Assembly (NCBI RefSeq): GCF_011806385.1
Contig: NZ_JAATOX010000026.1
Span: 1-37,175 of the forward strand
Length of the DNA: 37,175 bases
Source of the DNA: Phaeobacter sp. HF9A
GTDB taxonomy: Bacteria; Pseudomonadota; Alphaproteobacteria; Rhodobacterales; Rhodobacteraceae
Direction: 5' to 3'
Notes under the pieces: generated by a model
The model's input: the letters and a program-made list of their open reading frames with translations, nothing else
Databases searched by the model: none
Told to the model about the DNA's origin: nothing
Made by a program: the position numbers and the translations under genes
Shown here: positions 18,963 to 36,636 of the stretch, in pieces
Position numbering within the stretch: position 1 is the stretch's first letter
How the letters are laid out: each line of letters begins with the position of its first letter

Positions 18963-18983
18963 GCAATGTCCCCTATCTGCGGC

Positions 18984-19669: not shown

Positions 19670-19710
19670 TGAACATTTATTTGACAGGTGTGAACATTTC
19701 TGGAAATGTT
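19670..19710. promoter_or_regulatory. TetR operator and promoter region upstream of the demethylase flavoprotein
   Basis: A perfect inverted repeat AACATTTC-TG-GAAATGTT spans 19693-19710. The half-site TGAACATTT occurs at 19670-19678 and again at 19691-19699, 21 bp apart (two helix turns). A partial copy, TGAACAT, is at 19624-19630 near the TetR start. TTGACA at 19681-19686 is a candidate -35 box, with only a weak -10 inside the palindrome. Control by the divergent TetR protein is inferred. Confidence 0.62.
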
Positions 19711-19734
19711 TCGCCAATCAAACGGAGCCAAGCC

Positions 19735-21780: not shown

Positions 21781-21791
21781 TCTGCGCGCGC

Positions 21792-21848
21792 TCCCGGTGG
21801 CTCCGGGATGCGACGTCACAAGGTTCGGAGGGGCGCTGGAACGGCGCC
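21792..21848 (+). terminator. Two weak hairpins after the demethylase flavoprotein gene
   Basis: TCCCGG/CCGGGA (21792-21797, 21803-21808) with a 5-nt loop is followed by GGCGC/GCGCC (21832-21836, 21844-21848), then TTTCCC. These are the only termination-like structures in the 230-bp gap before the Rieske gene. They may separate the two transcription units or only attenuate. Confidence 0.35.
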
Positions 21849-21904
21849 TTTCCCAAGACAACAAAAAATACGCCAGCTCGCGCGTCTCATGCCATGCCAC
21901 AGAA

Positions 21905-21927
21905 GACAGGACAGGACAGGACAGGAC
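21905..21927. repeat. Short tandem repeat of GACAG (about 4.6 copies)
   Basis: GACAG is repeated without error four times, plus a partial GAC, in the gap upstream of the Rieske oxygenase gene. The gap otherwise holds an A-rich patch near 21857-21872 and a small hairpin TCCGC/GCGGA (21975-21990) just before the ribosome-binding site. The repeat could vary by slippage; no function is evident. Confidence 0.6.
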
Positions 21928-22010
21928 GAACGGGCCGCTGTTTCATCTCAAGGAACGGCCAATATCCTCCAGTTTCCGCGATTTTGCGGACGTAATCTCG
22001 AAGGTGTCAC

Positions 22011-23252
22011 ATGCTGCGTGAATCCGATGTTCTCTCCACTTTGATGCGCCGAAAGCCTGGCTATTCACTGGCGCAGGATCTGTACTGTGATCCGGGCGTC
22101 TTTGACGCCGATATGGCCCGTATCTGGTACAAGGAATGGCTCTTTGTGCTGCCCTCCTGCGAGATTCCCAAGGCCGGGAATTATGTTGTCCACGAGATCG
22201 GCGCCTATTCCGTGGTGATCGTGCGCGGCAACGATGGCGAGATCCGCGCCTTTCACAATTCCTGCCGCCATCGCGGCTCGGTCCTGTGCAAGGCGAAAAA
22301 GGGCACCGGCCCCAAGCTGGTCTGCCCCTATCACCAATGGACCTATGAGCTGGACGGCAGGCTGCTCTGGGCCCGCGACATGGGCGCGGATTTTGATGCC
22401 TCCAAGCACGGGCTGAGCCCTGTTCATTGTCGTACCCTCTCTGGCATGGTCTATATCTGCCTTGCCAAGGACGCGCCCGACATCGAGGAATTCGCCGCAG
22501 AGACAGCACGTTACCTGGGTGCGCATGATCTGGAAAACTCCAAGATCGCCTATGAAAGCACCATTATCGAGCATGGCAACTGGAAACTGGTCTGGGAAAA
22601 CAACCGCGAATGCTATCACTGCGCAGGCAATCACCCGTCGCTGTGCCGCACCTTCCCGGAGGATCCCGCCTATATCGGCAGCGATCCCACCGGCGGGCTG
22701 AATGATCTGCAAAAACAGCATACCGACCGCTGCGAGGCGGTGGGCGCGGCTTCGGCCTTTCGGGCCTCGGCGACCGGTGATTGGCGCTATGTGCGCACGC
22801 CGCTGCTTGAGGGCGCCGAGAGCTATACCATGAATGGCAAGGTCGCGGTGAGTAAGCCGAATTCCAGCCTGCCGTTTTGCGATGCGGGCTCGCTGCTCAA
22901 GTACAAATACCCGGGCACCTGGAACCATTTCCTGTCGGATCACATCCTGTTGTTCCGGGTCACGCCGATCAGCCCGATGGAGACCGAGGTCTGCACCAAA
23001 TGGCTGGTTCACAAGGACGCGGTTGAAGGCCAGGACTATGACCTGAAGCGCCTCACCGAGGTTTGGCTTGCGACCAATGACGAAGACCGGGAAGTGGTCG
23101 AGAACAACCAGCGCGGCATTCGCTCGCCCGCCTATATTCCGGGGCCCTATTCCCCGAAACACGAGGCCGGAAATATCCAGTTCACCGATTGGTATGCCGA
23201 CACGATGATCCGGGCGATCACCACCGGCGCGACCCCGGTTGCGGCGGAATAA
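22011..23252 (+). CDS. gbcA: Rieske-type quaternary-amine monooxygenase alpha subunit (GbcA/Stc2-like)
   Basis: A 413-residue Rieske non-heme iron oxygenase. The Rieske cluster ligands are C85/H87 (CRHRGS) and C105/H108 (CPYHQW). The mononuclear iron site is in ENNRECYHCAGNHP, with H203 and H208 and bridging E200. Glu at that place, instead of the Asp of ring-hydroxylating dioxygenases, is known from carnitine oxygenase CntA. Much of the sequence resembles glycine betaine demethylase GbcA, including TKWLVHKDAVEG and the NQRGI region. Expected reaction: NADH-driven oxidative removal of one N-methyl as formaldehyde from glycine betaine, proline betaine or a close analogue. The start has AAGGTG upstream. 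The reductase gene follows four bases later. Confidence 0.88.
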   Translation: MLRESDVLSTLMRRKPGYSLAQDLYCDPGVFDADMARIWYKEWLFVLPSCEIPKAGNYVVHEIGAYSVVIVRGNDGEIRAFHNSCRHRGSVLCKAKKGTGPKLVCPYHQWTYELDGRLLWARDMGADFDASKHGLSPVHCRTLSGMVYICLAKDAPDIEEFAAETARYLGAHDLENSKIAYESTIIEHGNWKLVWENNRECYHCAGNHPSLCRTFPEDPAYIGSDPTGGLNDLQKQHTDRCEAVGAASAFRASATGDWRYVRTPLLEGAESYTMNGKVAVSKPNSSLPFCDAGSLLKYKYPGTWNHFLSDHILLFRVTPISPMETEVCTKWLVHKDAVEGQDYDLKRLTEVWLATNDEDREVVENNQRGIRSPAYIPGPYSPKHEAGNIQFTDWYADTMIRAITTGATPVAAE

Positions 23253-23256
23253 AGCC

Positions 23257-24342
23257 ATGAGCCTGGACCTTGATATGACCACCTCTGGCGACGACGGGAT
23301 CTGGCGGGACTCTGAACCGCTGGTGTGCTGTGCCGTGGTGCCCGAAGCGCCTAATACCGCGACCTTCAGCTTCGTGTCGCCCTCCGGGCGGCAGTTCCGC
23401 TACGAGCCGGGCCAGTTCCTGACGTTGGAGCTGCCGGTGTCGGGCAGCACGCTGTGGAAGACCTACACGATTTCCTCCTCGCCGTCGCGACCGCTGACCC
23501 TTTCGGTCACGGTAAAGGCGCAGGCGGGCAGCGTTGGCACGCGCTGGATGCTGGACCATCTGCAACCGGGCATGTCGATCAAGGCAACCGGACCCGCCGG
23601 TATCTTTACCCTGCCGCGCAAGGAGCAGAAAAAATACCTGTTCATCTCGGCCGGGTCCGGCATCACACCGTCGCTGGCAATGACGACCTATCTTTATGAT
23701 CGGGGCACCGATGTCGATGTGACCTTCGTGCATTGCGCGCAACGTCCACAGGACATCATCGCCCGTCAGCGGCTGGAGCAGATGGCCTCTCGGGTGCCCT
23801 CGATCAAGCTGTTCTTTATCGTTGAAGAGGATGACCCCTATCGCGTCTGGACTGGGCTGCGCGGGCGGCTGAATCAGCTGATGATCGGCCTGATCGCCGG
23901 GGACTATATGGAGCGCGAGGTCTATTGCTGCGGCCCCGAACCCTTCATGGAGGCGGTGCGCGAAATGCTGATCGGCCTTGGTTATGACATGGATCGCTAC
24001 CATCAGGAGAGCTTTGGCGCGCCGGTCAAACAAGAAGAGCAGCTGCCCGAGCATGATGACCTGGTGCCGGACGAGGAGGCCGCCGCAAGCGTGACCTTTG
24101 CGCAATCCGAGGTAACCGCGGAGTGTTTCGAGACCGATACGGTTCTCGCGGTGGCGCGCAGTGCGGGGATCGTCATCCCCTCGGGGTGCACCTTTGGCGT
24201 CTGTGGCACCTGCAAGATCCGCAAGACCGCCGGGACTGTGCATATGGTCCACAACGGTGGCATTTCCGAAGAAGATATCGACAGCGGCTATATCCTCGCC
24301 TGCTGCTCGAAACCGATCGGGAAGGTGGAGGTGGAGGTCTGA
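23257..24342 (+). CDS. gbcB: Ferredoxin reductase component of the Rieske demethylase (GbcB-like)
   Basis: A 361-residue hybrid flavoprotein. The FAD-binding domain carries FRYEPGQFLTLELP and KTYTISSSPSRP, the NAD-binding domain LFISAGSGITPSLAM and CCGPEPFMEAV. The C-terminal plant-type [2Fe-2S] domain is SGCTFGVCGTCKIRK with a late cysteine in ILACCSKP, giving C-x4-C-x2-C-x~29-C. This is the domain order of GbcB, CntB and Stc3/4, which pass electrons from NAD(P)H to the Rieske cluster. I start at the ATG at 23257, five bases after the oxygenase stop; an in-frame TTG at 23239 is unlikely. It is probably cotranscribed with the oxygenase. A strong hairpin overlaps its stop. Confidence 0.9.
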   Translation: MSLDLDMTTSGDDGIWRDSEPLVCCAVVPEAPNTATFSFVSPSGRQFRYEPGQFLTLELPVSGSTLWKTYTISSSPSRPLTLSVTVKAQAGSVGTRWMLDHLQPGMSIKATGPAGIFTLPRKEQKKYLFISAGSGITPSLAMTTYLYDRGTDVDVTFVHCAQRPQDIIARQRLEQMASRVPSIKLFFIVEEDDPYRVWTGLRGRLNQLMIGLIAGDYMEREVYCCGPEPFMEAVREMLIGLGYDMDRYHQESFGAPVKQEEQLPEHDDLVPDEEAAASVTFAQSEVTAECFETDTVLAVARSAGIVIPSGCTFGVCGTCKIRKTAGTVHMVHNGGISEEDIDSGYILACCSKPIGKVEVEV

Positions 24343-24398: not shown

Positions 24399-25640
24399 CT
24401 AGTCGGTGACGCCGGCGGGGACCAGGCCCTCGGCGACCCAGGTGTCGAGCTGGGCCAGAACCGCCTCGCAGAAGGCATCATCATTGATGTGGCAATCCAA
24501 TGTGGTCATCTGGATACGCTCCGCTGCGGCCTCCTGGCTGGCGGCAACAAAGGCGCGCAGGCCCTCGGGGTCATGGGCGGGCTCGCCCGGTTTGTCCCAT
24601 TCCTCGATCCCCTGCTTTGGCAGGAAATACTGGGTGGGGCCGGCTGCCTTGGCCAGACGATCCACGATTTCGCGGGCCAGGGTACTGCGCTCCTCGGCGT
24701 TGAAGGCGACATTCTTGATCAACCGGTTGTGCTGGTGGAACGGACGCTCGGCAAAGCGCTCCGGGATTTCCTGCCAGCCCGCCAGGTCCAGAATGTCTGA
24801 TGCCCCCGCCGCAACCATCTGCGGGGTGCCACTGCGCCCGGCACCGCTGAGCCGATCGCTGCCGGCGCTCACCAGCGAGCCATGCAGCACGTTGACCAGC
24901 TCTTGCAGGGAAAAATCCATCACGCAGGCAAAGGCACCCTCGGCGGCAAGCCGTTCAAAGGCCATCCCGCCCATGCCCGTGGTGTGAAACACCGCCACGT
25001 CATAGCCCCGCGCCGAGAGCTCCGGGTGCAGGCGTTTCATGTATTTCAGACAGGAGGAGCCCAGCGAGGTCATCCCGATCACGGGACGGTCAAAGTTTGG
25101 CGGCTCGACGGATTTGGCGGCGCCCAGCACGGCACCGGCGGCCTGGCTCAGGGAGGATTTGCACAGCGGATTGAGACCATATAGCCCACCGGCCCAGAGG
25201 ATGAACTGGACATCGGCCGCCATCCGTTCGGCCGCGATCAGCGGAGATCCGGCGACGGTGGAGACAATATATTTCGGCACCCCGATAGGCAGCGCCTGCG
25301 CGCAATCCAGCGCCAGATCGGTGCCCATGGTACCGCCCAGGGCAATCATCCCGTCAAAGCGGCCGGCGTCATACAGCCGGCGGGTCATGAGCGCGGCCCC
25401 GGCGCTCATTTTCTCAAAGGCCTCGCCTTCTTCTCCCAGCGCGATCAGCCCGTCAATGGTCTCGCCCACCGCGGCGGTGACCTCGTGCTTGGTGACATCC
25501 ACGGGCTGCGGCGGGTCGCCAAGGACGCTGACATCCATGGTCAGCACCTTGCCGCCCTGGGATAGGATGCGGCCGATGAGATAGTCGAGCTCGTCGGCTT
25601 TGGTGTCAAACGTGCCGATCACAAGAATGGTCTTTGTCAT
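24399..25640 (-). CDS. Tm-1-like / UPF0261 ATP-binding protein
   Basis: A 413-residue member of UPF0261, the bacterial relatives of the N-terminal part of the tomato Tm-1 protein. It starts with ILVIGTFDTKADELDYL, then DGMIALGGTMGTDLAL, IVSTVAGSPL and VIGMTSLGSSCLKYMKRLHP. The HTTGMGGMAFERLAAEG stretch is a family hallmark in the second Rossmann-like subdomain. No biochemical role is established to my knowledge for bacterial members. It is last in the TTT/phospho-lyase operon, and its ATG overlaps the kinase stop by 4 bp, which ties it to the same pathway. The TIM-barrel partner that forms the C-terminal half of plant Tm-1 is absent here. Confidence 0.88.
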   Translation of the reverse strand: MTKTILVIGTFDTKADELDYLIGRILSQGGKVLTMDVSVLGDPPQPVDVTKHEVTAAVGETIDGLIALGEEGEAFEKMSAGAALMTRRLYDAGRFDGMIALGGTMGTDLALDCAQALPIGVPKYIVSTVAGSPLIAAERMAADVQFILWAGGLYGLNPLCKSSLSQAAGAVLGAAKSVEPPNFDRPVIGMTSLGSSCLKYMKRLHPELSARGYDVAVFHTTGMGGMAFERLAAEGAFACVMDFSLQELVNVLHGSLVSAGSDRLSGAGRSGTPQMVAAGASDILDLAGWQEIPERFAERPFHQHNRLIKNVAFNAEERSTLAREIVDRLAKAAGPTQYFLPKQGIEEWDKPGEPAHDPEGLRAFVAASQEAAAERIQMTTLDCHINDDAFCEAVLAQLDTWVAEGLVPAGVTD

Positions 25641-26602
25641 GGTCGGGTCCTCTTTGGGTCAGGGGTCTTGGCCAGATAGGCCGCACAAAGGTCGCGGGCC
25701 TCGTAAATGAAACGCCGGTTGCGCTCGGGCGCGCCAGCTTCGCTCATGCGGGGAATGATCCATCCCACATAGGTGACCGCGCGCAGCGCCAGAAACAGAT
25801 CCAGCGGCGCGGTGTCCAACGGCCGCTTGCTGCGATAGCCCGCGATCAGGGCGGATTTCAGCGCCTCATAGGCGGGTTCTTTGCGGTTCTTGAACAATGC
25901 CGTTGCGATATCAAACAGGCGAAACCCATAGCCGCCATCGTCAAAATCAATCAGATGCAGCTGATCACCGTCAAGCAGCACATTCTCCCGCACGAGATCG
26001 GCATGGGTAAGCCCGAAATCGAGCGCGCCCGCCAGTTGGGTCAGATCGTGCCGGGCCTGCTGGCGAAACGCCACAAGCAAGCTGCGGGTCTCGGGTGCGA
26101 GGCTGGGATTGTCCCAGAAACGCCCCCAGAGCGGCACCTCACCCAAGAGGCCCTCGATGTCCCAGCGCAGGCGGGTGAAACCCTCCTTTGGTGCAAAGGC
26201 GTCGCTCGCCTGATGCAGCCGGGCAATGTCCTGGCCGAGGGTGAAAAAGACCGCTTCGGGATTTTCCAGGCGCAGCGGCTCGCGGCTGGTGCCGAGCGGG
26301 CGGCCCGGCCGCCATGCCAGCAGATCAACCTGCGTCCCTTCGATAGCTTCGAGGAAATTCCCCGCGCGCGAGGGCTTTGGGCGGGGCACGGAAAGGCCCG
26401 CGCGCGCCATTGCGTCCAGCCACTCCAGCTCGGAGCGGAGCTCTGCCGGGCTGCGCAGTCCCGGACGCCGCAGGCGCAGGGCAAACTCCCCCGTGGCGTC
26501 GGTGACGCGGAACACCTGATTTTCGCGTCCGGCGACAAATTGGCACGTCGCCTGCGTCAGGCCCCATCGCGCCAGCGCGCTTGCGATGAGCGGCGACGTC
26601 AT
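25637..26602 (-). CDS. APH-fold kinase (hydroxylysine/amino-alcohol kinase-like)
   Basis: A 321-residue aminoglycoside-phosphotransferase-fold kinase. The catalytic loop is H200-x-D202 in THADLVRENVLL with N207, followed by the metal-binding D219 in LIDFDDGGYG. The N-lobe has FALRLRRP and a helix-C glutamate near residue 60. It is sandwiched by 4-bp ATGA overlaps between a phospho-lyase gene and the Tm-1-like gene. Pairing with an AGXT2L-type lyase is the arrangement expected for phosphorylation of a vicinal amino alcohol, as with 5-hydroxylysine kinase and its phospho-lyase. This is much more likely than antibiotic resistance. The substrate remains inferred. Confidence 0.88.
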   Translation of the reverse strand: MTSPLIASALARWGLTQATCQFVAGRENQVFRVTDATGEFALRLRRPGLRSPAELRSELEWLDAMARAGLSVPRPKPSRAGNFLEAIEGTQVDLLAWRPGRPLGTSREPLRLENPEAVFFTLGQDIARLHQASDAFAPKEGFTRLRWDIEGLLGEVPLWGRFWDNPSLAPETRSLLVAFRQQARHDLTQLAGALDFGLTHADLVRENVLLDGDQLHLIDFDDGGYGFRLFDIATALFKNRKEPAYEALKSALIAGYRSKRPLDTAPLDLFLALRAVTYVGWIIPRMSEAGAPERNRRFIYEARDLCAAYLAKTPDPKRTRP

Positions 26603-27876
26603 GCCTGCACCGGGGTTTCTGCCATCACGCGATCAAGCGTGTCGATCAGCAGGTCCAGATGCGCCTCGGCAAAGGGCATCGGCGGGCGGGTCTTTAGCGG
26701 GTTTTTTTGGCGGCCCAGGTTGGGCAGCAGGATACCCTGATGGCGCATGGCGTTCACCACACGATCAGCATAGGCGCTGGCGGGCTCTTTGCTGGTGCGA
26801 TCCAGCACGAATTCCGCGCCAAAGACCATGCCGCTCTGACGGGTGTCGCCAATGACGCTGTATTTTTGCGCCAGCGTATCGAGCCGCTCAACGGCCAGTT
26901 TGCCAATCCGGGCGGCATTGGCTTGCAGTGACTTGTCCTCCAGCTCCTCCAGCACCGCCATGGCCGCGGCGCAGGAGACCGGGTTGCCGCCAAAGGTGTT
27001 GAAGTAGCGAAAAGAAGAGCGAAACCGCGCCATGATCTCGGGGGTGGTGACCAGGCCGGCCACCGGATGACCGTTGCCCATGGGTTTGCCCATGGTGACC
27101 ACATCGGGGATGACGCCCTGTTTCTGATGTCCCCAGAAATGGCTGCCGCAGCGGCCAAAGCCTGCTTGCACCTCGTCGCAGATCAACAGCCCGCCGGCGC
27201 GGCGCGCGGCCTCTGCTGCTGGGCGCAGCCAGCCTTCGGCCTGCCGTGGAAAACCCTCGTTGAGGAACAGCGGGCAGACGATCAGCGCCGCGAACCCCAC
27301 CCCGGATGCGTTGAGCGCGTCGATCGCCTCTTGCACCTTCTCGGCAAAGCGCTGCCCGTCGGGATCATGCAGGCGATAGCTGTCGGGGGCTTCCACATGG
27401 CGGACATAGCCGTCCAGCCCAAAGCCGACCTCGGGTGGGTTGGAGGTGGAGAGCTGGCTGACCAGCGTGGTGTTGCCGTGATAGGTGGCGTCGGTTGCAA
27501 TGATGCCGCGCTTGCCGGTCATGGCTTCGGCCATGCGCAGCGCGATATCGTTCGCTTCGGATCCGGTGCAGGTCAGGATGGCGGTTGTCAGCGGGTCATC
27601 GAATGTGCCGGTCAGCCGTTCGACGTAGTCCAGAATACCCTCGTAGAGATAGCGGCTGTGGGTGTTGAGCTTTGCGGCCTGCGTTGTGATCGCCTGCACC
27701 ACCCTTGGGTTGCAATGGCCCACATGGGGCACATTATTATAGCAGTCGAGATATCGGTTGCCCGCCGCGTCCCAAAGCCAGACCCCGTCGCCACGCACGA
27801 CATGGATGGGGTCATCATAAAAGGTTGAGACATTCGGCCCAAGCAGGGCCCGGCGGCGGGCAAGGAGGTCAGGCAT
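26599..27876 (-). CDS. AGXT2L-type PLP-dependent phospho-lyase (class III aminotransferase fold)
   Basis: A 425-residue fold-type I PLP enzyme. The internal aldimine lysine is K264 in DVVTMGKPMGNGHPV; D234 in CDEVQAGFGR contacts the PLP pyridine nitrogen; GSEAND lies at 105-110. CYNNVPHVGHCNPRVV, NTHSRYLYEGILDY and YFNTFGGNPVSCAAAM match ethanolamine-phosphate and 5-phosphohydroxylysine phospho-lyases rather than ordinary omega-transaminases. Those enzymes eliminate phosphate and ammonia from O-phospho-amino alcohols to give an aldehyde. The start overlaps the tctA stop by 8 bp and the end overlaps the kinase start by 4 bp, so transport, phosphorylation and cleavage appear coupled. It could still be a transaminase; the neighbouring kinase argues against that. 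Confidence 0.87.
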   Translation of the reverse strand: MPDLLARRRALLGPNVSTFYDDPIHVVRGDGVWLWDAAGNRYLDCYNNVPHVGHCNPRVVQAITTQAAKLNTHSRYLYEGILDYVERLTGTFDDPLTTAILTCTGSEANDIALRMAEAMTGKRGIIATDATYHGNTTLVSQLSTSNPPEVGFGLDGYVRHVEAPDSYRLHDPDGQRFAEKVQEAIDALNASGVGFAALIVCPLFLNEGFPRQAEGWLRPAAEAARRAGGLLICDEVQAGFGRCGSHFWGHQKQGVIPDVVTMGKPMGNGHPVAGLVTTPEIMARFRSSFRYFNTFGGNPVSCAAAMAVLEELEDKSLQANAARIGKLAVERLDTLAQKYSVIGDTRQSGMVFGAEFVLDRTSKEPASAYADRVVNAMRHQGILLPNLGRQKNPLKTRPPMPFAEAHLDLLIDTLDRVMAETPVQA

Positions 27877-29368
27877 CTTTGGGGCTCTTCTCTTCGGCGC
27901 GCCAGCTTTTCCAGACCGTCCAGGCCTGCACGATGACTGCGATCAGGATCATGGAAAACAGGATGAAGGCGATCGGGCGGTCGATGAAATCCCAGGGCTC
28001 TCGCACCCGCGCCATGGCGGTGCGCAGCTTGTCCTCCATCAGCTTGCCCAGAACGATGCCGAGAATGATCGGCGAAGTGGGATAATCCAGCCGCTTGAGG
28101 ATAAAGCCAAACACCCCAAACCCGGAGGCGATTGCCACATCGGTCAGCGAATTGCGCAGCGAATAGACGCCGATCAGGCTGAAGGTGAGGATCATCATGC
28201 CAAGGAAGCGGTTCGGAATCGTCATCGCTTTCATCAGCGTGTCGGTGGCAAAGAACAGGAAGATCACGACGATGATGTTCAGCAACAACAGGCAGAGATA
28301 AAGCGCGATCACGAAATCCATCTGCTGCGCGAACAGCTGCGGGCCGGGGATGACATTATGCACGTAAAACACTGCAAGCATCATCGCGGTCAGCTCCTCG
28401 CCCGGAATTCCAAGCGCCAGCAGCGGGATCATCGCGGCAGCGGGCACCGAGTTGTTCGCCGCCTCGGAGGCAACGATGCCCTCGGGGTTGCCCTTGCCAA
28501 AGCGCTCGGGCGTCTTGGAGGTCCGCTGGGCGTAGGAATAGGACATGAACTGTGACATGAACTCGCCCACGCCGGGGATCATGCCGCAGATGACACCAAA
28601 GGCGGACCCCACCGCGGCGATGCGCCGATAGACCCAAAGATCCTTCATCTGCGCGAAAAAGCCGACCTTCTCCACATGGGGGAGCGTGATGGCCTTGTCC
28701 TTGTCCATAAACAGGATCAGGGCCTGGCTGATGGCAAAGAGCCCGAGAACGACGACGATCAGGTCGATCCCCGATTGCAGCCAGCCCATGCCGAAGGTGT
28801 AGCGCTGGGTATAGGCCGTCGGCTCGATGCCGATGGTCTGGAGGAAGATCCCGACGCAGGACAGCATGGCGGCCGCCAGCACCTGGCCACGGTGGGTGAT
28901 AATCACAAGCAGAATGCCAAGGAGGGCGGCAAGGAAGATCTCGCGGGCGCCAAACATGGGCGCGACCTTGGCCAGAACCGGCGCCAGCACCATCAGCGCG
29001 GCAATGGAAAAGAGCGCGCCAAAGAAGGATGCGGAATAGGCCAGGCTGAGCGCGCGCCGCCCCTCGCCGCGTTGGGTCATCGGATAGCCGTCATAGGTGG
29101 TCAGCGCGTTGACCGGTGTGCCGGGGGTGTTGACCAGGATCGCCGGAATGGCACCGCCGAACATGGACGAGCCATAGATGCCGAGGAGGGCGGTCAGCCC
29201 GACGATGGGCTCAAGCGAAAAGGTGACCGGCAGCACGATGGCAATGGCCACCGCCGCGCCGACGCCAGGCAGGCCGCCGACGATCACGCCTCCGATCGAG
29301 CCGATCAGCAGCGCGGCCATGACGTCCCAGCGCGCGATGAGTTCAATGCTTGATAGCAGGATATCCAT
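27869..29368 (-). CDS. tctA: TTT transporter large membrane subunit (TctA)
   Basis: A 499-residue protein with about a dozen membrane spans, the TctA length. It carries the family glycine motif IVGGLPGVGAAVAIAIVLPV near residue 30, IPAILVNTPGTPVNALTTYDGYPM, and the second repeat GMIPGVGEFMSQFMSYSYAQ. Ribosome-binding site GAGGTCA precedes it, 11 bp after tctB. It forms the inner-membrane channel of the tripartite tricarboxylate transporter. Its stop overlaps the phospho-lyase start. TTT systems usually carry carboxylates, which suggests that the imported amino alcohol also bears a carboxylate, or that the binding protein is unusual. Confidence 0.94.
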   Translation of the reverse strand: MDILLSSIELIARWDVMAALLIGSIGGVIVGGLPGVGAAVAIAIVLPVTFSLEPIVGLTALLGIYGSSMFGGAIPAILVNTPGTPVNALTTYDGYPMTQRGEGRRALSLAYSASFFGALFSIAALMVLAPVLAKVAPMFGAREIFLAALLGILLVIITHRGQVLAAAMLSCVGIFLQTIGIEPTAYTQRYTFGMGWLQSGIDLIVVVLGLFAISQALILFMDKDKAITLPHVEKVGFFAQMKDLWVYRRIAAVGSAFGVICGMIPGVGEFMSQFMSYSYAQRTSKTPERFGKGNPEGIVASEAANNSVPAAAMIPLLALGIPGEELTAMMLAVFYVHNVIPGPQLFAQQMDFVIALYLCLLLLNIIVVIFLFFATDTLMKAMTIPNRFLGMMILTFSLIGVYSLRNSLTDVAIASGFGVFGFILKRLDYPTSPIILGIVLGKLMEDKLRTAMARVREPWDFIDRPIAFILFSMILIAVIVQAWTVWKSWRAEEKSPKDA

Positions 29369-29378
29369 GTGATTGACC

Positions 29379-29918
29379 TCAGAAATAGCGCAGAAGGATG
29401 TAGCGAAGCCCGTCCGGCGCGTAGTCGTAAATCGCGCCGCCAGGGATTTTGACGTTCATCGCACTCTTGAAAAACAGCACCACCACAAGCCCGAACAGGG
29501 CAGCCCAGACATTCATGCGGCCGCGATAGCCGACCCGCAGGGACAGAAGCGTGCAAAAGATCACGGTGGCGAAGAGATAGCCGATGACCGGAATGGTCGC
29601 GACATAGAGCATGTACCAGCCGATGTATTCCAGCGAGCGGATCCAGTTCAGCCCCTCGCTCCAGCGGCCCGGAGTGCGGTCAACCCGGTGGCGCATCAGC
29701 TTGTGCAGGATCGCAAACAGGATCACACCGCCAAGCGACAACGCCGGCCAGAACCGCGGTTGTGCGGCCAGTCCCTTGCCGGAAATCCAGGTGGTCTGCC
29801 AGGGAAGGGCGGCCAGCAGCGCGGCGGCGAGGATCAGCAAAAGCATGCTGAACAGCATCTCGCCGGGCTTGCGCCCCTCGGGAAAGATATGGGGTTGGTC
29901 TTGTGTGGGCTCGCTCAT
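29379..29918 (-). CDS. tctB: TTT transporter small membrane subunit (TctB)
   Basis: A 179-residue protein with four hydrophobic segments, separated by a charged loop near GRWSEGLNWIRSLEYIG, the TctB topology. I take the second of two tandem ATGs (29918) because GGAGG is four bases before it; the first ATG directly abuts the ribosome-binding site. A longer reading frame upstream is non-coding. It follows tctC after a 106-bp gap holding a GC-rich hairpin and leads directly into tctA. Sequence conservation in this subunit is low, so the call rests on size, topology and position. Confidence 0.87.
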   Translation of the reverse strand: MSEPTQDQPHIFPEGRKPGEMLFSMLLLILAAALLAALPWQTTWISGKGLAAQPRFWPALSLGGVILFAILHKLMRHRVDRTPGRWSEGLNWIRSLEYIGWYMLYVATIPVIGYLFATVIFCTLLSLRVGYRGRMNVWAALFGLVVVLFFKSAMNVKIPGGAIYDYAPDGLRYILLRYF

Positions 29919-29983
29919 CATTCCTCCGGGCGCAGGGGAGCCTGCCGTTGCGAGGGGCTCGAAACGGGACTGATCTCTAGAGG

Positions 29984-30012
29984 GACCAGCCGCGCCAGCG
30001 GCGCGACCGGTC
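29984..30012 (-). terminator. Imperfect GC-rich hairpin between tctC and tctB
   Basis: Nested arms GACC/GGTC (29984-29987, 30009-30012) and CGCGCC/GGCGCG around an AGC loop, with a 3-nt internal mismatch on each side. It lies just after the tctC stop and before tctB. As with the hairpin at 5368-5398, it may protect the binding-protein message or reduce read-through. Function is inferred. Confidence 0.5.
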
Positions 30013-30024
30013 AGACCATTGGGA

Positions 30025-30960
30025 TTATTCAGCGATAATCGCGTTGATGGTGCCAGCGGTTTCCTTGTCGGACAGGATGCGCGCGGCGGCATCATCGGCG
30101 TCGGTCCAGTAGATGATCGCGCCGGTCTGTTTGGCCAGTTCCTGCGCCCGCTCAGAGGCCAGGGTTTCCTTGGCAACAGCGATGATCTTTTCGCGCACGT
30201 CGGCGGGTGTTTCCTTGCGGACAAACAACCCGTTCCAGAGCGAGATATTCAGGTTCGGCGTGATCGACGCCAGGGTCGGCGCGTCGGGCGCGACCGGGAT
30301 CGCTGTTTCGGTGATGGTGGCCAGGATGTTGACGCTGTCGAGGCAGGGCAGGATCTGCTGGATCGTGGTATTGATCACGTCGAAATCGCCAGAGGCCAGC
30401 GAATTGCAGTCGAGCGCACCGGAGGAGGCTTCGGCACCCCAGTCAAAGCCCATTTCCTGCGCCGCGGCAAAGGTCGCCTGGGTCGGCAGCATGAAGGAGC
30501 CGAAATGGCCCAGGACCTGGGGATTGTCAGCGGAGTAATCGGCCAGTTCCTGCAAGGTCGCATAGGGTTTGTCGGCGCTGGCGGCAATCACGAAGGGATA
30601 GGTCAGGAAGATGCCCAGCGGATCAAACGGATCGGGGCTGAGCCCGGGCACGCCCACTTCCGGGCCGACCACCGGCACGTCCACCACAAAGGAGCCAATG
30701 GTGTAGCCATCTGCCGGCGCCGCCGCGACGGAGGCGGCACCCGGGAAGGGGCCACCGTCGGAGGGGCGGTTTACGACCGCCGCCGCGACGCCGTATTTCT
30801 CTTCGAAATCTTCTGCGATCATCCGTGTCAGCACGTCTTCAAGGTCGCCCGGCGGGAAGGGGACGATGAAGCTGACGGGTTTTTCGGGGTAGTCGGCAAA
30901 GGCGGGCGATGCCAGCACGGCAAGCAAAACGCCTCCAAGGATGGATTTGGTTTTGGTCAT
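30025..30960 (-). CDS. tctC: TTT transporter periplasmic binding protein (TctC/Bug family)
   Basis: A 311-residue protein with a signal peptide (MTKTKSILGGVLLAVLASPA, cleaved near FA-DYPEKP). The mature start DYPEKPVSFIVPFPPG is the Bug/TctC hallmark, followed by DGYTIGSFV. The usual glycine-rich ligand loop after PFPPG reads DLEDVLTRM. Two cysteines (in LDCNSLAS and LPCLDSV) could form a disulfide. It is first in the left operon, divergent from iclR. A candidate promoter (TTGACA at + strand 31024-31029, TAAAAT at 31000-31005, both read on the minus strand) carries an operator-like repeat. It delivers the substrate that the downstream kinase and lyase are presumed to use. Confidence 0.92.
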   Translation of the reverse strand: MTKTKSILGGVLLAVLASPAFADYPEKPVSFIVPFPPGDLEDVLTRMIAEDFEEKYGVAAAVVNRPSDGGPFPGAASVAAAPADGYTIGSFVVDVPVVGPEVGVPGLSPDPFDPLGIFLTYPFVIAASADKPYATLQELADYSADNPQVLGHFGSFMLPTQATFAAAQEMGFDWGAEASSGALDCNSLASGDFDVINTTIQQILPCLDSVNILATITETAIPVAPDAPTLASITPNLNISLWNGLFVRKETPADVREKIIAVAKETLASERAQELAKQTGAIIYWTDADDAAARILSDKETAGTINAIIAE

Positions 30961-30986
30961 TGACGGATTCCCTGTGGTGTTATATT

Positions 30987-31029
30987 ATCAACACTGGTGA
31001 TTTTAGTGTTGCGATTGCGCGTGTGTCAA
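30987..31029. promoter_or_regulatory. tctC promoter with IclR-type operator
   Basis: On the minus strand, TTGACA (31029-31024) and TAAAAT (31005-31000) are separated by 18 bp, a good sigma-70-type promoter for tctC. Over and just downstream of the -10 lie inverted arms CAACACT (30989-30995) and AGTGTTG (31005-31011), and an imperfect 15-bp palindrome ATCAACACTGGTGAT (30987-31001). CAACACTGGTGAT recurs in front of the aldehyde dehydrogenase gene. Binding by the adjacent IclR protein is inferred. Confidence 0.68.
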
Positions 31030-31079
31030 GGATTGCTGTTCCAGTGCGCGCGCGCCCAGCCGTGCAGACAGGAGGCAGG

Positions 31080-31883
31080 ATGTCATCAACCGTTACAAAG
31101 GCGCTCTCGTTGTTGGAGTTTTTCTCCGAGGACGAACCGGAACTGGGATTGTCGGATCTGGCCCGCAGGTCGGGCATGGACAAGGCGGCGGTTCACAGGA
31201 TGCTGGGCTCGATGGCGGAGTCCGGCCTGGTAGAGCAGCAAGCCGATTCGCGGCTCTATCGCCTGGGGGCCGGGGTGCTGCGCCTGGCGCGGGTGCGGGA
31301 AACCGCGTTTCCGGTCAGCGCGATGATGCAGCCGATTTTGCTCCGCCTGTCCACGGAAACCGGCGAAACCGCACATGCTTCGCTGATTTCGGGGCGGGCG
31401 CTGGCCAATATCGCAACATGCGAGAGCAAGAAGGGCAGTCGCGTCTCTCTCGTGGCGGGCGAGGTGCTGCCCTATCACAGCACCGCGTCGGGTTTGGCCG
31501 CGCTGGCCTATGCGGATGACAAGCTGCTTGACCGTGTGCTCTCCGCCCCGCGCGAGGCGAGAACCCGGTTCACCCTGACCGAGCGCGACGACATCCTGAC
31601 GCGGATCGAGGTTGTGCGGGCCAATGGGTTTTCGGAATCCGATCAGGCCCACGAGGAAGACGTGCACGGGCTCGCGGCGCCGCTGTTTGATCGCTCCGGG
31701 CGGGCCTGTGGCGCGGTGTCGGTCTCCACCCCCTCGCATCGGATGACGGCGGAGCAGCGCCAGCTGAGCATCGCCGCGGTCCTGCGGGCGGCAGAGGATA
31801 TTACCGCCGGTCTTGGCGGGCAAAGGCCGCGGGGCTACGCGGATCAGGTGGCGGGTTTGCTGGCCTCAGGCCCCCGCGATTGA
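31080..31883 (+). CDS. IclR-family transcriptional regulator
   Basis: A 267-residue IclR regulator. The winged helix-turn-helix is within residues 1-65 (VTKALSLLEFFSEDEP, LGLSDLARRSGMDKAAVHRM, SRLYRLGAGVLRL). The GAF-like effector domain has the expected LPYHSTASGLAALAY, ANGFSESDQAHEEDVHGLAA and GAVSVSTPS. The ATG at 31080 has GGAGG six bases upstream. It is divergent from tctC and is followed 116 bp later by the aldehyde dehydrogenase gene on the same strand. Identical sequence elements in both flanking promoters suggest one regulator for both arms. Its ligand is probably the amino alcohol or a breakdown product. Confidence 0.92.
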   Translation: MSSTVTKALSLLEFFSEDEPELGLSDLARRSGMDKAAVHRMLGSMAESGLVEQQADSRLYRLGAGVLRLARVRETAFPVSAMMQPILLRLSTETGETAHASLISGRALANIATCESKKGSRVSLVAGEVLPYHSTASGLAALAYADDKLLDRVLSAPREARTRFTLTERDDILTRIEVVRANGFSESDQAHEEDVHGLAAPLFDRSGRACGAVSVSTPSHRMTAEQRQLSIAAVLRAAEDITAGLGGQRPRGYADQVAGLLASGPRD

Positions 31884-31956
31884 ACTCACCCTGCGCGCCC
31901 TTCAACGGGTGCGGGCCGGGGCATCCGCTATTCAGGATTGACAGGCGCGCTCTCAG

Positions 31957-31987
31957 TTGGCACGATATATGCAACACTGGTGATAAT
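31957..31987 (+). promoter_or_regulatory. Aldehyde dehydrogenase promoter with second IclR-type operator
   Basis: The 13-mer CAACACTGGTGAT at 31972-31984 is identical to the one at 30989-31001 in the tctC/iclR region. A candidate -35 TTGGCA (31957-31962) and -10 GATAAT (31982-31987) flank it at a rather long 19-bp spacing. A 13-base exact match between two promoters of one cluster is unlikely by chance and marks a shared operator. Confidence 0.6.
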
Positions 31988-31999
31988 AATAAACCGATT

Positions 32000-33484
32000 A
32001 TGGAGAGAACCTTGCTGCATGACCTTTCAAAGGCGCCTGTCGGCCCGGCTTCCCACCTGATTGACGGCCTGTCGCAGGCGGCATCGGATGGCGGCACGAT
32101 GGATGTGATTTCGCCGCTGAACGGCACGCGCCTGACGACCATGGCGCGCGGCACCGTCGAGGACGCCGAGGCGGCGATCGCTGCGGCGCGGGCCGCCTTT
32201 GACGATGGGCGTTGGTCCGGCCTTGCCCCAGCGGCGCGCAAGAAGATCCTGCTGAAATGGGCCGATCTGATCGAGGCCAAGGCGCAGGAACTGGCGGTGT
32301 TGGGGGTGCGCGACAATGGCACCGAGATCGCAATGGCGCTGAAGGCGGAGCCTCTCTCCGCGGCTGGCACGATCCGCTATTTCGCCGAGGCCATCGACAA
32401 GATCTATGGTGAAATCGCTCCCACCGCCCCCGGCACGCTGGGGCTGGTGCACAAGGAGCCGGTGGGCGTGGTCGGTGCGATCGTGCCGTGGAACTTCCCC
32501 CTGATGATCGGAGCCTGGAAACTGGGCCCGGCGCTGGCGGCGGGGTGCACTGTGGTATTGAAACCCGCTGAAACCGCCTCCCTGACGCTGTTGGAGATTG
32601 CCAAGCTGGCGCTGGATGCGGGGCTGCCGCCCGGTGTCCTGAACGTGGTCACCGGCGAGGGCGCGGTTGTGGGCGCCACGATTGCCGAAAGCAATGCGGT
32701 CGATGCGCTGGTGTTTACCGGCTCCGGCGCGACGGGGCGGCGTTTGCTCGAAGCCTCGGCACGGTCGAATTTCAAACGGGTCTACCTGGAGCTGGGCGGC
32801 AAATCCCCCAATGTGGTTTTTGCAGATGCGCCCGATCTGGATGAGGCGGCAAAGGTGTCCGCCTATGGGATCTTTCGCAACTCCGGCCAGGTCTGCGTTG
32901 CGGGCTCGCGCCTGCTGGTCGAGCGCAGCATCCACGACGCCTTTGTCGAAAAGCTGAAGCAGGTGGCAGAGACCATGGTGGTCGGCGATCCGCTGAACCC
33001 TGAAACCTCGGCCGGGGCAATCAACTCCGAGGCGCAGCTGGAACAGAACCTGCGCTTTGTCGCGGAGGCCCGCGCGGCCGGGCGGCAGATCGTCACCGGC
33101 GGCGAGCGCATCCTGCAAGAGACGGGCGGTTACTACATGGCGCCGACGATCGTGGCCGGGGTCTCCCCCGAGGATGCGATCGCGCAGGAAGAGGTCTTTG
33201 GCCCGGTGCTGGCTGTCATCCCCTTTGACAGCGAGGACGAGGCCGTGGCGATCGCCAATGGCACCGATTTTGGCCTCGCCGCCGCGGTCTGGACTGCGGA
33301 TCTGTCGCGCGCGCATCGCATGGTGCGGCGCATCAAGGCGGGGGTTGTGCATGTCAACACCTATGGCGGTGCCGATGTCACCGTGCCGCTGGGGGGCGTC
33401 AAGCAATCCGGCAATGGCCACGACAAGTCGCTGCATGCCTTTGACAAGTTTTTCGACCTGAAAACCGCCTGGATCAAACTGTGA
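32000..33484 (+). CDS. Aldehyde dehydrogenase, PuuC-like
   Basis: A 494-residue NAD(P)-dependent aldehyde dehydrogenase. Catalytic C299 is in NSGQVCVAGSR, general base E264 in LELGGKSPN, oxyanion N165 in VPWNFPL and cofactor-binding K188 in VLKPAE. The end GVKQSGNGHDKSLHAFDKF closely resembles PuuC, which oxidises gamma-glutamyl-aminobutyraldehyde, so an amino-aldehyde or semialdehyde substrate is likely. The start is either ATG at 32000 or a TTG at 32012, which has GGAGAG at better spacing. It follows an IclR-type operator. It would oxidise the aldehyde released by the phospho-lyase encoded in the opposite arm. Confidence 0.9.
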   Translation: MERTLLHDLSKAPVGPASHLIDGLSQAASDGGTMDVISPLNGTRLTTMARGTVEDAEAAIAAARAAFDDGRWSGLAPAARKKILLKWADLIEAKAQELAVLGVRDNGTEIAMALKAEPLSAAGTIRYFAEAIDKIYGEIAPTAPGTLGLVHKEPVGVVGAIVPWNFPLMIGAWKLGPALAAGCTVVLKPAETASLTLLEIAKLALDAGLPPGVLNVVTGEGAVVGATIAESNAVDALVFTGSGATGRRLLEASARSNFKRVYLELGGKSPNVVFADAPDLDEAAKVSAYGIFRNSGQVCVAGSRLLVERSIHDAFVEKLKQVAETMVVGDPLNPETSAGAINSEAQLEQNLRFVAEARAAGRQIVTGGERILQETGGYYMAPTIVAGVSPEDAIAQEEVFGPVLAVIPFDSEDEAVAIANGTDFGLAAAVWTADLSRAHRMVRRIKAGVVHVNTYGGADVTVPLGGVKQSGNGHDKSLHAFDKFFDLKTAWIKL

Positions 33485-33545
33485 TCCGACCGACCCATAT
33501 CGCCGTTCCGGCGCTCGACTTGCTTATATCCTGAAAGGAACACCC

Positions 33546-34901
33546 ATGAAGGACGAGAACTTCCTCAAGGAAAACAACGCCCGTCATCTCTGGCATCCGA
33601 TGGCGCATCCGGCGGACAGCCTGGCCAATCCGCCCGATATCATCACCCAAGGCGAAGGGGTCGAAATCGTCGACGTCGATGGCCACCGCACCGTGGATGC
33701 GGTCGGCGGGCTGTGGAATGTCAACCTTGGCTATTCCTGCGCACCGGTAAAAGCGGCGATCGCGGCGCAGCTGGACAAGCTGCCGTATTATTCGACCTTC
33801 CGCGGCACCACCAATGACGCGGTGATCGAGCTCAGCTACATGTTGCAGGAGTTCTTTGCCCCGGACGGGCTGACCCGGGCGTTCTTTACCTCCGGCGGCT
33901 CTGACAGCGTCGAGGTGGCGCTGCGCCTGGCGCGTCAGTATCACAAGATCCGCGGCGAGGCCGGGCGGGTGAAGTTCCTGAGCCTCAAGAAGGGCTATCA
34001 CGGCACGCACACGCTGGGGGCTTCGGTCAATGGCAATGCCAATTTCCGCACCCAATACGAACCCTTGATGCCAGGGTGCTATCATATCCCGGCGCCCTAT
34101 CCCTATCGCAATCCCTTCAACGAGACGGACCCGGAGCGTCTGGCGCAGCTTTGCGTGGCGGCGCTGGAGGATGAGATCAAGTTCCAGGGCGCCGAGACCA
34201 TCGCCGCCTTTATCATGGAGCCGGTGCTTGGGGCGGGTGGCGTGCTGCCGCCGCACAAGAGTTTCATGCCCGCTGTGCGCGAGATCTGCGACAAATACGG
34301 GATCCTGCTGATCGCCGATGAGGTGATCACCGCGTTTGGGCGCACCGGGTCATGGTCCGGGTCGCGCCACTGGGGTGTCCAGCCGGATCTGATGTGCACG
34401 GCCAAGGCGATCACCAACGGCTATTTCCCCTATGGCGCCGTCATGGTGTCGGGGGGTGTTGCCGAGGTCTTTGAAAAGGACACATCTGGCAAGGGGGCGA
34501 TCGGCTCCGGCTATACCTATTCGGGCCATCCGGTGGGTGCGGCGGCGGCGATTGCCTGCCTCAAGGAAACCGAGCGCTTGCAGGTCAAGGACAATGCAGC
34601 CGCACGCGGCGCGCAGCTCTTTGCGGGGCTTCAGGCCCTGGCGCAGAAATATGATGTCATTGGTGATGTGCGGGGCGGGCATGGGTTGATGTGCGCGCTG
34701 GAGCTGGTCTCTGACCGCGCGCAAAAGACACCGATCGACAAAAAGAGCATCGGCGCGGTTCAGCGGGTCGCCTATGAAAACGGGGCGATGGTGCGCGTGT
34801 CTGGCAATAATGTCATCATGTCGCCGCCGCTGATCCTGTCGGAAACGGATGTCGAAACCATCCTGAGCGCCTTGGATGCCGGGTTCAAAGCGCTGCCCTG
34901 A
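33546..34901 (+). CDS. Class III (omega-type) aminotransferase
   Basis: A 451-residue fold-type I PLP aminotransferase. The PLP lysine is K287 in MCTAKAITNG, D258 lies in ADEVITAFGRTG, and FFTSGGSDSVEVALRL binds cofactor phosphate. NARHLWHPMAH and AVGGLWNVNLGYSC are typical of omega-amino acid, putrescine or taurine:pyruvate aminotransferases. Unlike the phospho-lyase gene product it lacks the TMGKPMGNGHP signature. AAGGAA lies upstream; it starts 61 bp after the aldehyde dehydrogenase gene and is probably cotranscribed with it. It would remove a remaining amino group, for example from GABA or a similar acid, with pyruvate as likely acceptor. Confidence 0.9.
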   Translation: MKDENFLKENNARHLWHPMAHPADSLANPPDIITQGEGVEIVDVDGHRTVDAVGGLWNVNLGYSCAPVKAAIAAQLDKLPYYSTFRGTTNDAVIELSYMLQEFFAPDGLTRAFFTSGGSDSVEVALRLARQYHKIRGEAGRVKFLSLKKGYHGTHTLGASVNGNANFRTQYEPLMPGCYHIPAPYPYRNPFNETDPERLAQLCVAALEDEIKFQGAETIAAFIMEPVLGAGGVLPPHKSFMPAVREICDKYGILLIADEVITAFGRTGSWSGSRHWGVQPDLMCTAKAITNGYFPYGAVMVSGGVAEVFEKDTSGKGAIGSGYTYSGHPVGAAAAIACLKETERLQVKDNAAARGAQLFAGLQALAQKYDVIGDVRGGHGLMCALELVSDRAQKTPIDKKSIGAVQRVAYENGAMVRVSGNNVIMSPPLILSETDVETILSALDAGFKALP

Positions 34902-34967: not shown

Positions 34968-35474
34968 CTATGCGGGTCGGTCCAGGATTTCGGGCGCGAG
35001 ATCAAGATCCATACGGGAGCGCGGGCGCGCTTTTGGATCGTCGTCGAGCACCGCATGCATGCGCTCCATCACCCGAAAGAAGGTACTGAGCTCGTCGGCG
35101 CTGACGGCGGCGCGCAGCTTTGCCTCGATGTCGCGGGCGGGCGGGATGATATCGGCCAATGCGGCACGCCCCCGGTCGGTCAGCGAGATCGCCACAAGGC
35201 GCGCATCCTTCTCCCCCAGCGCCTTTTGCACCAGCCCCTCCGCTTCCAGGCGCGAAACAGCACGGCTGACCCTTGGCTTTTCCAGGTTCACGCAGTTGTG
35301 GATGTCGCGCACCGACACGGCACCGCAGCGCAGAAGGTGGATCAAGACCCGCCATTCCGGCACCGCCAGCCCATGGGCTCTTTCGTATTCGACCGAGACC
35401 CGCTTGCTGACCCGTTCAGAGAGCACGGCAAGCCGGTAGGGCAAAAAGGCGGAAAGGCGGAAATCATCTGACAT
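34968..35474 (-). CDS. MarR-family transcriptional regulator
   Basis: A 168-residue MarR protein. The winged helix-turn-helix spans about residues 30-100 (LAVPEWRVLIHLLRCGAVSV, then RDIHNCVNLEKPRVSRAVSR), and the wing is ALGEKDARLVAISLTDRGRA. I start at the ATG at 35474, with AGGAG nine bases upstream; an ATG at 35495 lacks one. It is divergent from the metallo-beta-lactamase-fold gene. Two palindromes in between overlap its own candidate promoter (TTGCAC / TATCAT), so autorepression and control of the neighbouring operon are likely. Such regulators often respond to aromatic compounds. Confidence 0.9.
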   Translation of the reverse strand: MSDDFRLSAFLPYRLAVLSERVSKRVSVEYERAHGLAVPEWRVLIHLLRCGAVSVRDIHNCVNLEKPRVSRAVSRLEAEGLVQKALGEKDARLVAISLTDRGRAALADIIPPARDIEAKLRAAVSADELSTFFRVMERMHAVLDDDPKARPRSRMDLDLAPEILDRPA

Positions 35475-35559: not shown

Positions 35560-35685
35560 ACTGTACTGCGCCTCCTGCGGCAAAGCGCGCTCTTTCGAGA
35601 CGCAGCGCGGGGAGCGAAACGGTCCGTCGCAGGTGCGTATAGGGACATGCAGGGCAGCAATGCGCTGAAGCAGAGAGGATTACAG

Positions 35686-36636
35686 ATGGCCAATGGATTC
35701 GCGTCGCAAGGCGACACCGCCGAGAAGCAGATTTCCTTCACCGAGATCGGCAAGGGGCTCTATGCCTTTACCGCCGAGGGCGATCCGAACTCCGGTGTGA
35801 TCATCGGCGACGACAGCGTCATGATCGTCGAAGCGCAGGCAACACCGCGGCTGGCGGGCAAGGTGATCGAAAAAGTGCGCGAAGTCACCGACAAGCCGAT
35901 CAGCCATGTGGTGCTCACCCATTATCACGCGGTGCGCGTGCTGGGCGCTGCGGCCTTTGAGGCGCCGCAGGTCATCATGTCGGATGTGGCCCGCTCCATG
36001 GTGGTCGAACGCGGACAGGAAGACTGGGACAGCGAATTCCAGCGTTTCCCGCGCCTGTTCCAGGGCCACGAGAGCATTCCCGGCCTGACCTGGCCGACCA
36101 CGACCTTCAACGACGAGATGACCGTCTATCTGGGCAATCGCCGGGTCGATCTGATGCATCTGGGCCGGGCGCATACCGCGGGCGACATCGTCATTCACGT
36201 GCCCGATGAAAACGTGATGTTCACCGGCGACATCGTCGAATACCACTCCGCCTGCTACTGCGGCGATGGTCACTTCGGCGATTGGGGCAACACGCTGGAC
36301 AATATCGCCGCCTTTGACGTCGATGCCATTGCACCGGGTCGTGGCGATGCGCTGGTGGGCAAGGACATGGTCCATGCCGCGCTGGAAAACACCCGTGACT
36401 TCGTCGAAAGCACCTATCGCCCGGTTGCACGGGTGGCGGCACGTGGCGGATCGCTCAAGGAGGCCTGGGACGCGGTGCGCGCGGAATGTGATCCGAAATT
36501 CAAGGATTACGCCATCTACGAGCATTGCCTGCCCTTCAACGTCGCCCGCGCCTATGACGAGGCCCGGGGGATCGACACGCCGCGGATCTGGACGGCGGAA
36601 CGCGACCTGGAGATGTGGAAAGCGCTGCAAGGTTAA
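35686..36636 (+). CDS. Metallo-beta-lactamase-fold protein with disrupted metal motif
   Basis: A 316-residue MBL-fold protein. The core motif, normally THxHxDH, reads THYHAVRV: H79 and H81 remain, but the Asp and the next His are V83 and R84. Later ligands look kept, with H in GRAHTAGD and D in FTGDIVEYHSACYCGDGHFG, so metal binding may be mononuclear or altered. Recognisable MBL strands are SGVIIGDDSVMIVEAQATP and DNIAAFDVDAIAPGRGD. The start at 35686 has AGAGGA upstream. It is first in a probable operon with a flavoprotein monooxygenase 27 bp downstream, under MarR-type control. The substrate is unknown; hydrolysis or thioester cleavage of an aromatic-pathway intermediate is possible. Confidence 0.82.
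   Translation: MANGFASQGDTAEKQISFTEIGKGLYAFTAEGDPNSGVIIGDDSVMIVEAQATPRLAGKVIEKVREVTDKPISHVVLTHYHAVRVLGAAAFEAPQVIMSDVARSMVVERGQEDWDSEFQRFPRLFQGHESIPGLTWPTTTFNDEMTVYLGNRRVDLMHLGRAHTAGDIVIHVPDENVMFTGDIVEYHSACYCGDGHFGDWGNTLDNIAAFDVDAIAPGRGDALVGKDMVHAALENTRDFVESTYRPVARVAARGGSLKEAWDAVRAECDPKFKDYAIYEHCLPFNVARAYDEARGIDTPRIWTAERDLEMWKALQG

Follow-up and report, generated by a model that had tools for sequence, protein, structure and literature searches.

A kinase and phospho-lyase gene pair of Phaeobacter, with relatives linked to homoprotocatechuate genes: a predicted route for octopamine-like amines

Which amino alcohol would be consumed by a kinase and a phospho-lyase that are encoded side by side behind the genes of an importer? 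The question is raised by positions 24399..34901 of contig NZ_JAATOX010000026.1 of Phaeobacter sp. HF9A, a stretch of 37,175 nucleotides that is referred to here, at its full length, as the window. The interval consists of two divergent arms, tctC-tctB-tctA-lyase-kinase-UPF0261 on the minus strand and IclR-aldehyde dehydrogenase (ALDH)-aminotransferase on the plus strand, the tct genes belonging to a tripartite tricarboxylate transporter (TTT). A first-pass annotation of this DNA had described a candidate complete system for the catabolism of an amino alcohol, with 2-hydroxyputrescine and 5-hydroxylysine as candidates. Every gene that it named is present where it had been placed, and the interval also holds the UPF0261 gene, which it had left unnamed; 'complete' is nevertheless too strong for the window, as ring cleavage is encoded on another contig. 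We propose that the module may degrade phenolic beta-hydroxyphenylethylamines such as octopamine and noradrenaline, feeding the homoprotocatechuate (Hpa) meta-cleavage pathway, and put the probability of this reading at about 0.6.

The lyase (26599..27876, minus strand; PF00202) has the class III fold dependent on pyridoxal 5'-phosphate (PLP), which is shared by transaminases. AGXT2L enzymes act on phosphorylated 2-amino alcohols, which lose phosphate and ammonia and become aldehydes. The motifs TMGKPMGNGHP and CYNNVPHVGH, on which an assignment to the AGXT2L group (ETNPPL/PHYKPL) had been based, are found in the translation. When compared with PDB chains, the lyase reached 366 bits with the phospholyase 5g4i and 337 bits with human ETNPPL (AGXT2L1; 6tor), the remaining 51 chains listed at E<=1e-30 scoring 168 bits or less. 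In a tree of 21 sequences, the 12 on the lyase side (the window lyase, eight relatives, a paralogue from the same genome, 5g4i and ETNPPL, with PHYKPL itself not included) were split from nine transaminase-type sequences, of which six are encoded in the window's own genome, with 100/99 support and in 200 of 200 bootstrap trees (100%). The residues K264, N47, N48, H54, N71, R75, K395 and R397 all match 5g4i, while ETNPPL has K at position 397; the aminotransferase of the window lacks these signature residues, K264 excepted. The roles we give them are presumed, that of K264 as the PLP lysine included. The closest solved relative is thus the Arthrobacter phospholyase 5g4i/5g4j. These comparisons support the lyase as an AGXT2L-type phospho-lyase, not a transaminase, in line with the first-pass annotation, which a grouping with true transaminases would have refuted. 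A structure model of the lyase was set aside as too poor for use (mean pLDDT, the predicted local distance difference test score, of 45.6 from ten sequences). The same genome encodes a second lyase of the group (L091:5194-6624, 44% identity), with no match to the kinase within the 16 kb examined.

The neighbouring gene (25637..26602, minus strand) encodes a protein of the aminoglycoside phosphotransferase (APH) fold (PF01636, 114 bits), in which the motifs H200-x-D202-x4-N207 and D219-F-D-D222 are intact and near-invariant across 77 aligned sequences. Public records label its homologues 'homoserine kinase' or 'phosphotransferase', although it scores 67 bits against the NCBIfam homoserine kinase model, under the cut-off of 271. 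An amino-alcohol kinase function is predicted. As had been claimed, the lyase gene overlaps both its neighbours, tctA by 8 bases (ATGCCTGA) and the kinase gene by an ATGA, and a second ATGA overlap joins the kinase and UPF0261 genes. The top NCBIfam models for the lyase, PRK06148 and PRK06149 (474 and 397 bits, far under their full-length cut-offs), describe one long protein in which kinase and lyase are fused, whereas the window has two separate genes; both models also match the kinase weakly.

To place the pair in context, we compared 80 loci, the best among 557 confirmed relatives, and included as much as 10 kb to either side of the match. The set is one of the closest loci and no census, and several of its loci end at contig ends. 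In 76 of the 80, the lyase is directly followed by a kinase homologue, whose start is about 150 bases or less from the point where the lyase match ends; no kinase match was found in the other four (L049, L050, L051 and L067). The lyase scores with 5g4i and ETNPPL, together with a kinase homologue following at these 76 loci, show that the arrangement is more than chance. The kinase–phospho-lyase chemistry put forward in the first-pass annotation is well supported, and its logic is common to ETNPPL and PHYKPL.

Clustering of the neighbouring genes brought those for homoprotocatechuate degradation to light. Of the 80 loci, 22 have at least two hpa genes no more than 10 kb away, counted with identity thresholds of our own choosing. 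All 22 are among the 56 loci outside a 24-member clade (clade B, support 100/98, mostly Paracoccaceae and Roseobacteraceae), and none of the 24 within it has such a linkage (p=9e-5, ignoring kinship). The linked loci come from Rhizobiaceae, Phyllobacteriaceae, Roseobacteraceae, Paracoccaceae and Granulosicoccaceae. When hpa linkage is mapped onto the lyase tree, its well-supported branches force at least 10 changes, and the tree as a whole has 11, against 19.9 with shuffled labels. The Rhizobium locus L036 encodes HpaE, HpaD, HpaH, HpaI and succinate-semialdehyde dehydrogenase above the NCBIfam cut-offs, and HpaR is above cut-off in L066; the HpaB, HpaF and HpaG matches are under theirs. Since this pathway recurs in 22 of 80 loci, phenolic arylethanolamines are indicated as the substrates.

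The same division separates the rest of the module from the pair. Clade B has the lyase in all 24 loci and the kinase in 23, and in none of the 24 did we find UPF0261, aminotransferase, ALDH, IclR, TctA, TctC or a permease of the amino acid-polyamine-organocation (APC) type. In the 56 loci outside it, UPF0261 is present in 38, the aminotransferase in 36, the ALDH in 37 and IclR in 36, while 18 loci have TctA, 20 have TctC and 16 have the APC permease. This distribution supports the ALDH and the aminotransferase, already attributed to the system in the first-pass annotation, as parts of one conserved module with the kinase–lyase pair.

The order of the genes varies, and the pair keeps its place between the module and the hpa genes in several of the arrangements. 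Rhizobium has IclR-UPF0261-aminotransferase-lyase-kinase-hpaFED, with the hpa genes reversed in Mesorhizobium; L061 has aminotransferase-IclR-tctCBA-ALDH-lyase-kinase-UPF0261-hpaR-FED; and Planktotalea has hpaIHG-decarboxylase-DEF-R-ALDH-aminotransferase-lyase-kinase. The record of Ruegeria THAF33 presents one run of hpa genes, a PLP decarboxylase, aminotransferase, IclR, tctCBA, ALDH, lyase, kinase and UPF0261, and single runs of hpa and module genes also appear in the public annotation of Phaeobacter porticola and of a CFBP7129 plasmid. R. pomeroyi DSS-3 and L. methylohalidivorans have the module or most of it, with hpa genes absent from flanks of 12–14 kb.

In the genome of the window itself, the pathway is encoded on contig C32. 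The 5-carboxymethyl-2-hydroxymuconate isomerase (CHMI; HpaF, PF02962) has its single match there and is found in 0 of 14 control genomes. It stands in the row hpaF, hpaE, hpaD, PLP decarboxylase, hpaG, hpaH, hpaI, with HpaE and HpaD above their cut-offs and the decarboxylase nearest to 3,4-dihydroxyphenylalanine (DOPA) decarboxylase (376 bits), followed by aromatic-amino-acid and tyrosine decarboxylases. At locus L021, homologues of the C32 and window genes are found together within 21 kb. The C32 proteins are 76–87% identical to their counterparts there, and those of the window 66% (lyase), 51% (kinase), 57% (UPF0261), 62% (TctA), 45% (TctB), 60% (TctC), 40% (IclR) and 76% (ALDH); the aminotransferase gene of L021 runs off the end of the locus.

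We then surveyed the family to which the window belongs, with a single genome for each of 149 genera and that of the window among them; 50 of these genomes encode HpaD above cut-off. Lyases of at least 60% identity are accompanied by HpaD in 17 of 22 genomes, compared to 33 of the other 127 (p=7e-6), whereas lyases below 60% show no association (7 of 26; p=0.50). The aminotransferase is associated with HpaD as well (45 of 66 genomes with it and 5 of 83 without; p=2e-16). Where no more than 15 kb separate the lyase from the aminotransferase, HpaD was found in 13 of 15 genomes; where the lyase is not so linked, it was found in 11 of 33, which amounts to no association. The HpaD gene itself has the lyase at a distance of up to 15 kb in 5 genomes, and the aminotransferase in 11. 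A separate check covered the genomes of 50 of the 80 loci. Of these, 20 are from the 24 loci in clade B and 30 from the 56 outside it, the latter comprising 3 of the 22 hpa-linked loci and 27 loci with at most one hpa gene nearby. HpaD is above cut-off in 9 of the 20 and 21 of the 30, respectively, a contrast that is suggestive only (p=0.089). The annotated hpaD of THAF33 does not match HpaD of C32; it is of another type, which the model TIGR02295 may miss, and the HpaD counts are therefore lower bounds. Taken together, the link between the module and the aromatic pathway is strong. An aromatic amine as the substrate of the kinase–lyase pair is suggested mainly by the fixed place of the pair among these genes.

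Several observations weigh against this last step, and some of them bear on an alternative that we consider unlikely, in which kinase and lyase handle ethanolamine or 1-amino-2-propanol, in the manner of classical amino-alcohol catabolism, the proximity to hpa reflects a clustering of amine-use genes, and the true link is that of the aminotransferase with hpa. Once the comparison is confined to genomes that have the aminotransferase, the lyase is only weakly associated with HpaD (17 of 20 versus 28 of 46; p=0.083), so that the aminotransferase may account for much of that link. Between hpa-linked and clade-B lyases there is no informative fixed difference, the single position passing the filter being a gap in clade B, and the lyase pocket therefore gives no proof of an aromatic substrate. 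Of the solved enzymes, a phospholyase and the ethanolamine-phosphate phospho-lyase come closest, and clade B shows that the pair exists without the module. The ethanolamine reading accommodates less readily the position of the pair between the module and the hpa genes in different orders, or the fact that close lyases, and not distant ones, track HpaD. It is also at odds with two loci where the pair adjoins hpa genes without an aminotransferase of the window type: L017, which ends at a contig end, and the Pseudosulfitobacter cluster of hpa genes, lyase, kinase and a tripartite ATP-independent periplasmic (TRAP) transporter. The aminotransferase of the latter is 34% identical to that of the window and the cluster has no UPF0261, which at the same time departs from the module proposed here. 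Further points on the unfavourable side are that the hpa genes are not adjacent within the window, the ring-cleavage genes being on C32; that HpaD is missing from 5 of the 22 survey genomes with a close lyase and from 9 of the 30 genomes outside clade B, two of which are probably split at contig ends and seven not; that 9 of 20 clade-B genomes carry it too; and that TTT systems usually carry carboxylates. Moreover, the scheme leaves UPF0261 without an explanation, as it does a gene for a haloacid dehalogenase (HAD) family hydrolase that occurs in 25 of the 80 loci (at L058:3877-4539, for instance), in none of clade B, and has no match in the window.

The ALDH gene of the plus-strand arm (about 32000..33484; PF00171) had been called PuuC-like. 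PuuC (NF007352) is indeed the closest NCBIfam model, yet the score of 554 bits is far under its cut-off of 850; we predict a (hydroxy)phenylacetaldehyde dehydrogenase. This affects the substrates originally suggested, whereby 2-hydroxyputrescine or 5-hydroxylysine would be phosphorylated, cleaved and oxidised towards gamma-aminobutyrate or 2-aminoadipate. Such a route would use identical enzyme chemistry, and a glutamine-synthetase-like gene, the one polyamine-like neighbour that we found, is present in 5 of the 80 loci, although its product reaches 174 bits against a gamma-glutamylputrescine synthetase cut-off of 650 and is, like the ALDH, far under the level expected of polyamine enzymes. 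Given that the recurring neighbours are aromatic-ring genes and not polyamine genes, the suggestion is probably wrong, and we regard the route as quite improbable. The last gene of the arm (33546..34901; PF00202) encodes a class III aminotransferase that matches PRK07481 with 738 bits, above the cut-off of 575, and is predicted to act on tyramine or dopamine.

In the proposed degradation of phenolic beta-hydroxyphenylethylamines, the kinase, as an arylethanolamine kinase, would place a phosphate on the benzylic hydroxyl of octopamine or noradrenaline, and the lyase, as an arylethanolamine-phosphate phospho-lyase, would split off phosphate and ammonia, leaving 4-hydroxy- or 3,4-dihydroxyphenylacetaldehyde. 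The ALDH would oxidise these to 4-hydroxyphenylacetate or homoprotocatechuate for the Hpa pathway, which octopamine would enter via 4-hydroxyphenylacetate and noradrenaline directly via homoprotocatechuate. The aminotransferase could produce the same aldehydes from the non-hydroxylated tyramine and dopamine, amines that the decarboxylase would make out of tyrosine and DOPA. A dimethylglycine-dehydrogenase-like gene within the module of four loci (match starts at L012:4066, L013:1632, L014:4036 and L044:4126; 71–72% identity to the L044 protein) would fit N-methylated amines such as synephrine.

The phosphate ester is what sets the predicted route apart from the octopamine and synephrine dehydratase activities (EC 4.2.1.87/88), whose net reaction likewise turns a beta-hydroxy amine into an arylacetaldehyde. 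A very improbable variant would dispense with the ester: the lyase would act on the free arylethanolamine itself, removing water and ammonia, and the kinase on another metabolite. A class III PLP lyase that releases ammonia from a beta-hydroxy amine, in this case a phosphonate, without a kinase step is described for PbfA (PMC8154272). The window lyase, however, falls in the phospho-lyase clade, scores 194 bits against a cut-off of 525 with the PbfA model NF049939, and is accompanied by a kinase gene, here as in 76 of the 80 loci. Compared to ETNPPL and PHYKPL, what distinguishes the window system is the predicted arylethanolamine-phosphate substrate, the operon with TTT and UPF0261 genes and the hpa linkage.

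Import of the amine, or of its amino acid, would fall to TctCBA. All three components are present, each above its Pfam cut-off: tctC, for the substrate-binding protein (30025..30960, minus strand; PF03401, 62 bits), tctB, for the small membrane protein (about 29379..29921, minus strand; PF07331, 41 bits), its start taken as the first ATG within a longer reading frame, and tctA, for the large membrane protein (27869..29368, minus strand; PF01970, 428 bits). In the loci outside clade B, TTT genes (TctA or TctC; 21 of 56) and the APC permease (16 of 56) are never found together (p=1e-4 ignoring kinship, the split following lineages to a large extent), and therefore an amino-acid-type permease may stand in for the TTT system. 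Both arms would be controlled by the divergent IclR-family regulator (about 31080..31883, plus strand; PF01614, PF09339), whose top NCBIfam model is the PcaR/PcaU/PobR subfamily (145 bits, under the cut-off of 285). The minus-strand arm ends with the gene for a UPF0261/Tm-1-like protein (24399..25640; PF23189 and PF06792). Among titles and the opening parts of abstracts, we found no literature giving a function for the bacterial protein.

Other genes surround the interval. A MarR-type regulator (34968-35474, minus strand) and a metallo-beta-lactamase-fold protein (35647-36636, plus strand) follow the aminotransferase, and both are beside it in L012 and L014 too. On the opposite side, convergent with the UPF0261 gene, positions 17343-24342 (plus strand) encode an MttB-like methyltransferase, a flavoenzyme of the old yellow enzyme (OYE) type, a Rieske oxygenase and a ferredoxin reductase. 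For the Rieske protein, the top chains were 3n0q at 620 bits and 3vca/4qup at 580 bits, the latter presumably the stachydrine demethylase Stc2. The GbcA and GbcB models match under cut-off; these genes probably serve betaine demethylation. No Rieske homologue of at least 40% identity was found in the 80 loci, nor in eight loci compared separately, and the 17343-24342 genes therefore look like a separate module. Trimethyllysine- or silaffin-type substrates, which they had suggested, were dropped as no supporting paper was found. Further upstream, translations judged by eye indicate a sugar-type ATP-binding cassette (ABC) importer, a sugar kinase and a SorC-like regulator (1853-10730), and a TRAP transporter with an amidase (11341-15161).

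Within the open-access literature, outside which most subscription journals lie, we found no paper that assigns genes to the bacterial beta-hydroxy deamination of octopamine or noradrenaline, which is no proof of absence, and none combining 'homoprotocatechuate' and 'octopamine'; the top results of broad searches on catecholamines were pharmacology. A review of HpaB (PMC10537072), which deals with enzyme engineering, contains no mention of a kinase–lyase route in its available part. The Hpa pathway starts at the arylacetate; the window module would extend it backwards to beta-hydroxy amines. In its full form, the proposal is that a dedicated arylethanolamine kinase and arylethanolamine-phosphate phospho-lyase allow bacteria to convert octopamine and noradrenaline to homoprotocatechuate by a route that needs no oxidase, and supply the genes for the orphan octopamine and synephrine dehydratase activities, with the TTT system as a phenolic-amine importer; we hold this wider claim tentatively, at slightly under even odds.

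If the reading is true, genes would be assigned to an orphan reaction, kinase/phospho-lyase pairs would extend from aliphatic to aromatic amino alcohols, and the specificity of a TTT system for an amine would become testable. UPF0261 goes together with the amine module, being present in 38 of the 56 loci outside clade B and in 0 of 24 inside it, and this context may help to find a role for the family. Animals and plants use noradrenaline, octopamine and related amines as signals, and the module would then be a marker for the use of catecholamines by marine and plant-associated bacteria.

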